Of a stretch of DNA of 64,000 bases, positions 15,675 through 17,322 are shown piece by piece; within the stretch, counting starts at the first letter, position 1; each line of letters opens with the position of its first letter. The notes below the pieces were generated by a model. It did no database searches. It saw only the letters and a program-made list of their open reading frames with translations, and had not been told where the DNA came from. The translations under genes were made by a program, and so were the position numbers. The stretch comes from Bacteroidota bacterium (lineage in GTDB: Bacteria > Bacteroidota > Bacteroidia > Chitinophagales > Chitinophagaceae). Where the stretch lies: NCBI GenBank assembly GCA_030706635.1, contig JAUZOD010000014.1, positions 1 through 64,000 of the forward strand, read 5' to 3'.

Positions 15675-16379
15675 CTAATTTTTTTCTATCTCCTTCAGGA
15701 GTTCATTCAATTGTGCATCTGCCACGGGCAATGGTTCCGCGGGCAAGGTAAAGGTGAGGTAAAATATTTTCCGGCTCTGAGCAATGTCCAGCATTTCGTA
15801 ATGTGTTTTTATGGCTAACTCCTCGGAAATATCCGAGTGCGCATAAACGTCTTCAGAGAAGGCCTGTGTGGGTAGTCCATATAATTCCAGGATCAGTTTG
15901 GTAAAATTGAACAGGACCGGAGAATCTGTTTTGAGGTGAATCAATCCTTCCCGCTTTAGAATTTTCTGATAGAGCCGGAGAAAACGGGGATGTGTTAATC
16001 TTTTCTTTGCCCGGGAGATGCGGAGATGGGGATCGGGAAAGGTAATCCAGATTTCGCTGACCTCACCCGGTAAGAAATACTGATCTATTTTATCTATCTG
16101 GGTACGCAGGAAAGCGGCATTGTGCAGATTATTCTTCAGGCATTTGGATGCACCCACATACATACGGTTCCCTTTCAGGTCCACGCCTATAAAATTCCTT
16201 TGAGGATATAAAGTGGAAAGGGCTACCGTATATTCTCCTTTTCCGCAGGCAAGTTCCAGGACCAGTGGGTTTTCATTTTTGAAAAAATCCTTCCAGTGCC
16301 CTGGCATTCCTTCCGGATATTGCAAAACATTTGCGAAAGAATTTATGGCCTGGAAACGCTGCAGTTTATTTTGTGCCAT
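15675..16379 (-). CDS. trmB: tRNA (guanine-N7-)-methyltransferase
   Basis: 234-aa SAM-dependent methyltransferase that makes m7G46 in tRNA. The SAM motif is LVLELACGKGEYTVALS and is followed by FIGVDLKGNRMYVGA. The signature TFPDPHLRISRAKKRLTHPRF (TrmB family PDPWxKxRH-like) is present. The start at 16379 (MAQNKLQRF) was chosen over the long upstream extension, which has no family counterpart. A -7 element TATTTTTG lies at 16386-16393, only 6 nt before the ATG, implying a nearly leaderless mRNA. The ATL gene begins 8 bp downstream. Confidence 0.93.
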   Translation of the reverse strand: MAQNKLQRFQAINSFANVLQYPEGMPGHWKDFFKNENPLVLELACGKGEYTVALSTLYPQRNFIGVDLKGNRMYVGASKCLKNNLHNAAFLRTQIDKIDQYFLPGEVSEIWITFPDPHLRISRAKKRLTHPRFLRLYQKILKREGLIHLKTDSPVLFNFTKLILELYGLPTQAFSEDVYAHSDISEELAIKTHYEMLDIAQSRKIFYLTFTLPAEPLPVADAQLNELLKEIEKN

Positions 16380-16385
16380 GGAAGG

Positions 16386-16393
16386 CAAAAATA
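16386..16393 (-). promoter_or_regulatory. -7 promoter element for trmB
   Basis: The minus strand reads TATTTTTG, an exact TAnnTTTG match. It is 6 nt from the trmB ATG, so the transcript would start at or next to the start codon. No good -33 TTG was seen. Confidence 0.5.
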
Positions 16394-16441
16394 AGGTTTG
16401 ACAGAGAATCCGGAGTGGTTTAGGACAAACAGGAGAAATAC

Positions 16442-16981
16442 TTAATTCTGGTGTTGTAGTCCGATTGAATGAAGAGATCGATCGTGTATGAGGGTGGGCT
16501 TCAGGTTTTTCTGAAGCAGGCTTTCGATCACGATCATGGCCGCCATGAGACCGGAAAGATTCTGGGACATGGAGGCAAGACAGCCTGTCCGGTCCATAAT
16601 GGTCAGGAAGCTTAAATTCCCTACCATTCCCTCCGTAGCAATTTCCCAAAATTTGTAAATGATGCCTATGGTAAGGGTGGCAGAAACCAGCGCGGTATAG
16701 GAGATGGCCCTGGGAACGCGAAGTTTTATGGAGAAAAAAGCATAAAAACAAAGGGCCAGGAGAAAGCTCATGCCAAAATGCGCCGAAAAATGGAGCAGCT
16801 TATTGTGATCGGATAAGGAGTCCGGAAACACGAATCCGAAGCAAATAACCCCTAAGCTCAAACAGAGCAGGGTCAGCTTATCCTTCAAGGTATATTTCTC
16901 TTTCAATTCATTAACATTTTTCACGAAACAGGTTTCCCAATATAAACGAAATCCATGCCAAAAGAAACCGGAAAACTTCAA
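16442..16981 (-). CDS. Small VanZ-like membrane protein
   Basis: About 160-180 aa with four hydrophobic segments, beginning near DKLTLLCLSLGVICFGFVF and including HFSAHFGMSFLLALCFYAFF, a central TALVSATLTIGIIYKFWEIA, and MAAMIVIESLL. The pattern SDHNKLLHFSAHFGMS... followed by WEI/E-containing helices resembles VanZ-family and DUF2238-like proteins; that assignment is tentative. The TTG at 16981 gives 179 aa; a GTG at 16924 (VKNVNELKEKYT) may be the real start. It may be cotranscribed with trmB downstream. Confidence 0.6.
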   Translation of the reverse strand: MKFSGFFWHGFRLYWETCFVKNVNELKEKYTLKDKLTLLCLSLGVICFGFVFPDSLSDHNKLLHFSAHFGMSFLLALCFYAFFSIKLRVPRAISYTALVSATLTIGIIYKFWEIATEGMVGNLSFLTIMDRTGCLASMSQNLSGLMAAMIVIESLLQKNLKPTLIHDRSLHSIGLQHQN

Positions 16982-17020: not shown

Positions 17021-17063
17021 AAAAACCCCGAAGCTCAGATCCGATCTGAACTCCGGGGCTTTT
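17021..17063 (-). terminator. Strong rho-independent terminator downstream of the tRNA-like RNA
   Basis: On the minus strand AAAAGCCCCGG-AGTTCAGAT-CGG-ATCTGAGCT-TCGGGGTTTTT forms a stem of about 14 pairs with two mismatches, a 3-nt loop and a T run. It begins 5 nt after the 3' end of the tRNA-like RNA. The A run on the other side could also make it act on plus-strand transcripts. Confidence 0.85.
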
Positions 17064-17067
17064 CAAG

Positions 17068-17239
17068 CTGTAGAGGGAGGATTCGAACCTCCACGGGGCA
17101 GTTAGCCTTAGCACAATGTTAGTGGTGGTCAACCCCAGTCGGCCACGCCTTGCAGCGAGACCGGCATTATGCTATGTTTATCCTGTGATCCCCACCCCCG
17201 AGACAAGAGGGCATGTCTGCCAAATTTCATCACTCCACA
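17068..17239 (-). ncRNA. tRNA-like RNA with a giant (~102 nt) structured variable region
   Basis: On the minus strand TGTGGAG (17233-17239) pairs with CTCTACA (17069-17075, one G-U) as a 7-bp acceptor. A class-II-type D arm follows (stem ATG/CAT; loop AAATTTGGCAGA), then an anticodon arm CCCTC-TTGTCTC-GGGGG (17195-17211) and a T arm GGAGG-TTCGAAT-CCTCC (17076-17092). T8, A14, A15, G18, G19, A21, T33, T48, G53, TTC 54-56, A58 and C61 are all canonical. Between the anticodon and T arms are 102 nt instead of 5-20. They can fold: GGGG/CCCC closes the insert, AGCATAATG pairs with CATTGTGCT, and CCGGTC pairs with GACTGG. The apparent anticodon is GTC, but position 37 is T, which is abnormal. No 3' CCA is encoded. 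I do not recognise the RNA; it is not a standard tRNA or tmRNA. Confidence 0.7.
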
Positions 17240-17322
17240 GTAAAGCCACTGCCTTCCGACAGCGACATCGCAATATTAACGTAAATCGCCGAATTATTGG
17301 ATAAATATTAATGAAATTTTTA

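Follow-up and report, generated by a model that had tools for sequence, protein, structure and literature searches.

The window analyzed here, a stretch of 64,000 nucleotides, encodes a tRNA-like RNA that belongs to a genuine new RNA family and quite probably serves tRNA-dependent asparagine synthesis as a dedicated carrier that takes no part in decoding and is controlled by an AsnC-type regulator. We favor this role because the RNA bears the marks of AspRS together with those of GatCAB, which amidates tRNA-bound aspartate to asparagine, and is apparently unfit to read codons. Its conserved fold, its recognition nucleotides, its gene neighborhood and its co-occurrence with GatB are direct observations. 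We found no description of such an RNA in the titles and abstracts of the open-access literature that we searched.

Read on the minus strand from 17239 to 17068, the RNA forms a 7-bp acceptor stem, a 3-bp D stem, a 5-bp anticodon stem and a 5-bp T stem, and 102 nt separate its anticodon arm from its T arm (Table 1). An earlier note on this DNA had described these four arms, the insert at 17093–17194, a GTC anticodon with T37 and a downstream terminator; we locate all of them where it placed them, the terminator as a hairpin followed by a T run. ARAGORN makes no tRNA call in the window, and the Rfam search that the note had suggested, tmRNA and 6S models included, gives no match at the gathering threshold within the window. 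The best sub-threshold Rfam match is CopA (27.4 bits, cut-off 60), which covers the T arm and the terminator. A single-sequence fold of the RNA gives z = -2.3, and its minimum-free-energy structure departs from the cloverleaf at the D and anticodon arms; the structural case rests on covariation.

Table 1. Coordinates of the tRNA-like RNA, its parts and the neighboring elements in the window
Feature	Position	Strand	Basis and remarks
Whole tRNA-like RNA, -1 to C74	17067..17240	minus	model match over full length, 166.9 bits (the window sequence is part of the model); 20/20 cloverleaf pairs
Landmark positions	U1 = 17239; G73 = 17068; C74 = 17067	minus	
Acceptor stem, 5' strand, TGTGGAG	17233..17239	minus	read in sequence; covariation
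Acceptor stem, 3' strand	17069..17075	minus	A72 = 17069 pairs with U1 = 17239; pairs 4-7 covary
D arm	17213..17230	minus	3-bp stem ATG/CAT (17230-17228 with 17215-17213); loop with GG and A at the 20a place
Anticodon arm, CCCTC-TTGTCTC-GGGGG	17195..17211	minus	G34 U35 C36 = 17204-17202; U37 = 17201; C38 = 17200
T arm, GGAGG-TTCGAAT-CCTCC	17076..17092	minus	cloverleaf fit; covariation
Variable-arm insert, 102 nt	17093..17194	minus	length 45-131 nt among 69 members
Basal insert helix, GGGG/CCCC	17193-17190 with 17098-17095	minus	covaries
Second basal insert helix, CAG/CTG	17185-17183 with 17101-17099	minus	covaries; followed by GATAAA facing CTAA
Conserved apical motif, GGGTTGACCAC	17125..17135	minus	form GGRTNGACCAY in 145/307 pattern-selected copies
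Intrinsic-terminator-like hairpin and T run	17022..17060	minus	read in sequence
Candidate -7 box, TAATATTG	17271..17278	minus	Bacteroidetes type TAnnTTTG, one mismatch; inferred
Divergent AsnC-like regulator, 157 aa	17386..17859	plus	146 nt from U1; Lrp/AsnC domains

The window DNA matches 62 of 98 genomes drawn around its own genome, which is included in the count (E<=0.01). One cloverleaf pattern fits 69 of 70 full-length members drawn from these genomes, 67 with 20/20 pairs and two with 19. The earlier note had proposed looking for compensatory changes in relatives, and these are plentiful: in an alignment of 30 diverse members, 18 of 34 pairs are changed on both sides, a number that none of 500 shuffles reaches, and 98.2% of the pair cells hold standard pairs. 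Sliding the partners in this alignment lowers pairing to 47–59%, a control that leans toward the structure because these sequences also served to derive it. The acceptor stem covaries across members (TGTGGAG/CTCTACA, TGTTGGG/CCCAACA and TGTAAGG/CCTTACA), as does the D stem (ATG/CAT, ACG/CGT and GTG/CAC). A covariance model separates family hits, at 85 bits or more, from ordinary class II tRNAs, at 61 bits or less, with two hits of about 67 bits being odd relatives.

Covariation extends into the insert. Its two basal helices, which appear as GGGG/CCCC or GAAG/CTTC and as CAG/CTG or CGG/CCG across the family, are changed on both sides at five of seven pairs in the 30-member alignment; beyond them, GAYAAA lies opposite CTAA and the tip is lineage-specific. 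Of the nested insert helices named in the earlier note, GGGG/CCCC and the basal 6 bp of the 9-bp helix covary. We set aside a self-splicing intron in view of where the insert sits, at the variable region, and of the covariation that its base shows along with the cloverleaf. The GAC within the apical motif could in principle pair with the GUC anticodon.

Two kinds of recognition marks, those of AspRS in the anticodon loop and G73 and that of GatCAB in U1-A72, appear to be joined in this one RNA. The strong AspRS determinants are G73, G34, U35, C36 and C38 (PMC9976931, in part), and all five are kept in 30/30 members of alignment A1. Nucleotide counts were taken from 81 distinct model hits (88 rows minus 7 duplicates): the anticodon is GUC in 77 and position 38 is C in 78, with the proviso that the model itself contains the AspRS-determinant positions and favors hits carrying them, and G73, G2-C71 and U1-A72 are each present in all 81. 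Pattern-derived counts of GUC, C38 and 20a were discarded because the search pattern itself demands these nucleotides. We read the GUC as conserved because it is a recognition signal for AspRS. The acceptor and T stems make up 7+5 bp with certainty; -1 is C or U in 68/81 hits, in which an eighth pair, -1:73, is possible and could lengthen the acceptor to 8 bp. C74 is invariant (81/81).

On the amidation side, U1-A72 confers amidation on Asp-tRNA-Asn, and G1-C72 and U20a of tRNA-Asp act as antideterminants (PMC9976931, in part). Every one of the 81 hits has A at the 20a place, that is, no U20a. The window's own genome encodes an ordinary tRNA-Asp(GUC) with G1-C72, U20a and the D loop GGUUA, and a tRNA-Asn that has U1-A72 but also U20a in the same GGUUA D loop; the D loops of these two tRNAs and of the tRNA-like RNA were numbered by hand. 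Counting against charging by AspRS are U1-A72 in place of G1-C72 and the rarity of G10 (18/81 hits): G1-C72, which bacterial tRNA-Asp keeps, helps E. coli AspRS place the 3' end (PMC9976931, in part).

If the RNA feeds GatCAB, it should accompany GatB where GatB has no other use, and we took genomes with GlnRS as the test set because GatCAB should be unneeded there for Gln-tRNA. A sample of 139 genomes, the RNA status of all of them known from the class-sample model search, contains GatB in 103, AsnRS in 134, AsnB-like proteins in 131, GlnRS in 49 and AsnA in seven (six above the cut-off). Among the 49 GlnRS genomes, GatB occurs in 16, comprising 12 that are RNA-positive and four of family f33, and the 33 genomes without GatB are all without the RNA. 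The RNA is therefore found in 12/16 GlnRS genomes with GatB versus 0/33 without (Fisher 2e-8, which ignores kinship). The search found no GlnRS in the other 74 RNA-negative GatB genomes of the 139, and GatCAB presumably serves Gln-tRNA there for this reason. In a second set of 80 genomes, chosen by RNA status, GatB is present in 49/49 RNA-positive versus 8/31 RNA-negative genomes (kinship not corrected). The contrast holds within family f1, with 27/27 versus 1/10 (five of the ten negatives rest on DNA search alone), and within family f18, with 8/8 versus 0/9, making 35/35 versus 1/19 for the two together. Over both sets, GatB, the one component of GatCAB that was searched, accompanies the RNA in 74/74 genomes tested (25/25 and 49/49). 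Counting against the association, eight genomes outside the GlnRS-typed set have GatB and are RNA-negative (G192, G089, G102, G150, G414, G460, G390 and G475).

The other enzymes of asparagine supply add to this picture. The 25 RNA-positive genomes of the 139 comprise 25 with GatB, 24 with AsnRS and 24 with AsnB-like proteins, and AsnA is found in 0/25 of them versus 7/114 RNA-negative genomes. G284 (f61) and G360 (f23), from families in which the RNA is otherwise present, possess AsnA and miss both the RNA and GatB; G246 has the RNA and GatB and gives neither AsnA nor AsnB-like hits. Absence of AsnB failed as a test of the proposal, AsnB-like proteins being present in 131/139 genomes. Their presence in 24/25 RNA-positive genomes implies that the RNA route need not be the sole one and may be conditional. 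The window's own genome has four AsnB-like proteins, of which the two that were read score 266 and 288 bits versus an E. coli AsnB cut-off of 499, and above the generic asparagine synthase cut-off.

In the four f33 genomes, GatB lies within frames of 1109–1120 aa. One of them, G256, encodes GatB fused to a bacterial-type AspRS in a single 1106-aa protein (L352:404-3724); GlnRS and AsnRS are present there and the RNA is absent. Judged from the sequence, the fusion reads as an independent sign that AspRS and GatCAB cooperate in the class.

These data bear on the idea that the RNA is charged with aspartate and acts, with no amidation, as a regulatory decoy or as a sensor of AspRS or of the aspartate level. 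We consider this unlikely. It would account for AspRS determinants on an RNA that lacks decoding features, and for the regulator gene that adjoins it, but it leaves unexplained both the invariant U1-A72 and the distribution of GatB, present in every RNA-positive genome and absent in 18/19 RNA-negative genomes of f1 and f18.

That regulator has E. coli AsnC as its closest PDB chain (113 bits versus 44 for Lrp). The NCBIfam AsnC model NF008384 is the best of seven models at 158.3 bits (next 65.8), and since this score is under the cut-off of 227 we call the protein AsnC-like only. The earlier note had suggested building a covariance model and searching for copies upstream of Lrp genes, and the search was fruitful: after removal of RNA duplicates and of 13 short-flank loci without such a gene, 163 of 220 loci have a divergent Lrp/AsnC-family gene no more than 1.5 kb away. 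At 143 bits or more, the regulator occurs in at least 43 of the 49 RNA-positive class-sample genomes among the matches listed, and it adjoins the RNA in three of the other six. The arrangement recalls E. coli, where 151 bp separate the divergent genes asnC and asnA (146 here between RNA and regulator) and an AsnC-type regulator likewise faces an asparagine-making gene, as proposed here, with the difference that asnA encodes an enzyme whereas the partner here is an RNA gene. Activation of asnA by AsnC in E. coli is lost when asparagine is present (PMC4482635, in part). Counting against the proposal, 14 genomes, G302 and G371 among them, have the regulator and no RNA of at least 80 bits. An unfiltered full-model search beside 20 regulator homologs, in genomes without a hit, recovered one diverged copy, in G371.

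The G371 remnant (L327:1269-1383), divergent from an AsnC-like gene, keeps the acceptor, the T arm, G73-C74 and AATAAAC, and its D and anticodon arms are not recognizable. Another relative, in G302 (L148:2038-2115), is 78 nt long, with a short variable region and the anticodon AUC; AsnA is present in the same genome.

The Bacteroidetes-type promoter, as TTG-N-TAnnTTTG, occurs in about half of the upstream regions (94/208 versus 1.95 in block-shuffled ones), and a terminator-like element lies within 80 nt downstream in 170/304 copies versus 20/304 with shuffled flanks. Upstream k-mers yielded promoter-like and GTTCTT motifs and no clear candidate for an AsnC operator. The GTTCTT leader motif, at about -40 to -15, is found within 60 nt upstream in 85/305 copies and presumably resembles boxA of stable-RNA operons.

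The neighborhood also weighs on a reading in which Asn-RNA is formed and then acts as donor for an aminoacyl-transfer enzyme, which would place the asparagine on a peptide, a lipid or a wall precursor. The nucleotide and GatB evidence fits such transfer equally well, no release factor is known, and a partner might bind at the conserved apical motif. We nevertheless hold it to be improbable: the AsnC-like regulator was the one partner gene to recur among the clustered neighbors, loci without an adjacent regulator yielding no other gene that recurred widely, and where G284 and G360 miss the RNA and GatB it is AsnA, a maker of free asparagine, that is present.

In decoding tRNAs, U33 is retained and position 37 is a purine. 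The 81 hits carry U (68), G (10) and C (2) at position 33 and U (66), C (7), G (7) and A (1) at position 37, where a pyrimidine thus stands in 73 and a purine in 8. The family departs from decoding tRNA-Asp in four features, namely G1-C72, G10, a consistent U33 and a purine at 37, and to go by its nucleotides the RNA seems built against decoding. The earlier note had raised a tRNA scaffold in a non-decoding role, next to an aberrant class II tRNA, and our results support the former: the family is conserved, with strong covariation and a divergent Lrp/AsnC-family gene at most loci, and we regard the scaffold as non-decoding because C or G replaces U33 in some members and position 37 seldom carries a purine. 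Counting against this, some members combine U33 with G37 or A37 in an anticodon loop that could decode.

Those members, the prevalence of U33, the GUC anticodon and the AspRS determinants would all suit an unusual yet translating tRNA-Asp with a long variable arm, and an allo-tRNA class with GUC anticodons has been reported (PMC7609411, in part). We find this very unlikely, given the pyrimidine at 37 in 73/81 hits and the normal tRNA-Asp(GUC) already in the genome; if amidated, such a tRNA would put Asn at Asp codons, and the linkage to GatB and AsnC would go unexplained. Least credible of all is a tRNA-Sec-like RNA, with its class II arm, G73 and possible 8-bp acceptor, that accepts serine for some other serine-dependent use. 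In its favor, the marks of SerRS include G73 and a large variable region (PMC7609411 and PMC9976931, both in part), and -1 is able to pair with 73 in most members, but bacterial Ser identity lists C72 (PMC9976931, in part) where the RNA has A72, and the conserved GUC and C38 would be unexplained because SerRS ignores the anticodon.

For the asparagine carrier that we favor, we envision the following course. The RNA would fold as a class II-like tRNA; AspRS would recognize G73 and the GUC/C38 anticodon loop and load aspartate; and U1-A72, with no U20a, would make the Asp-RNA a GatCAB substrate, to be amidated to Asn-RNA. Asparagine would be released by hydrolysis or by a further factor and then used by AsnRS, release being the weakest step of the proposal. 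Asn-RNA would be prevented from reading Asp codons by the drift at position 33, the pyrimidine at 37 and its large variable arm, and the divergent AsnC-type regulator would tune transcription of the RNA to asparagine, matching supply to need. The large arm may exclude the RNA from ribosomes, or it may bring AspRS and GatCAB together, a scaffolding role that has been ascribed to tRNA-Asn in the transamidosome. Charging, amidation, release, ribosome exclusion and asparagine sensing are thus the parts that we infer, and this specific function, asparagine synthesis with AspRS and GatCAB, was absent from the earlier note.

The pathway is already known, tRNA-dependent asparagine synthesis being an established answer in bacteria that have AsnRS and GatCAB and no asparagine synthetase (PMC4206432, in part); the new part would be the dedicated non-decoding carrier. 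We lean toward seeing in it a novel class, a non-coding RNA cofactor of amino-acid biosynthesis, in which a chimera of AspRS anticodon arm and GatCAB acceptor replaces asnA in an asnC divergon and makes AspRS and GatCAB an asparagine synthase. In the ND-AspRS/tRNA-Asn/GatCAB transamidosome, aspartate is likewise placed on a U1-A72 tRNA and amidated by GatCAB. There, the carrier is a decoding tRNA-Asn and the AspRS is non-discriminating, whereas in the proposed route the carrier is a separate non-decoding RNA, whose Asp anticodon would make an AspRS specific for tRNA-Asp sufficient. Non-translational tRNA isoacceptors, such as the staphylococcal tRNA-Gly for cell-wall synthesis, are likewise poor decoders in metabolic use, but they serve aminoacyl transfer to wall precursors, and amino-acid biosynthesis is proposed here. 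Allo-tRNAs and selC* tRNA-Cys are also odd bacterial tRNAs with a long variable arm and a lengthened acceptor, and GUC is among the allo-tRNA anticodons (PMC7609411, in part); they are translating, Ser-type RNAs of 8/4 or 9/3 build, unlike the 7/5 or 8/5 build, the 45-131-nt variable region and the AspRS determinants found here.

If the proposal is true, a tRNA has been converted from a translation adaptor to a metabolic carrier that unites the marks by which two enzymes recognize their substrates. GatCAB would also gain a role in class members that possess GlnRS as well as AsnRS, a pairing described as puzzling (PMC4206432, in part). Annotation would gain an RNA family missed by ARAGORN in the window and below Rfam cut-offs, and the RNA could provide a natural scaffold for non-decoding aminoacyl-RNA chemistry.

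The family extends across the window's class. At 80 bits or more, the model finds the RNA in 49 of 295 class-sample genomes, in 19 families, and two RNA-bearing genomes of a 296-genome phylum sample (G761 and G769) lie outside the class. A pattern scan of named genomes returned at least 120 stretches, the matches listed including Chitinophaga, Mucilaginibacter, Pedobacter, Algoriphagus, Cyclobacterium, Fulvivirga, Saprospiraceae and one Ignavibacteriales; a Streptomyces match proved not to be a family member. Tandem copies of the RNA are common, with a maximum of five per locus (L151), and L151 (G221), L149 (G447), L153 (G135) and L154 (G224) contain arrays of three to five copies whose inserts differ in length. 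On the minus strand of the window, a TrmB-type methyltransferase (PF02390) is encoded at 15675-16751, and in several relatives a homolog (cluster c2) lies on the far side of the RNA.
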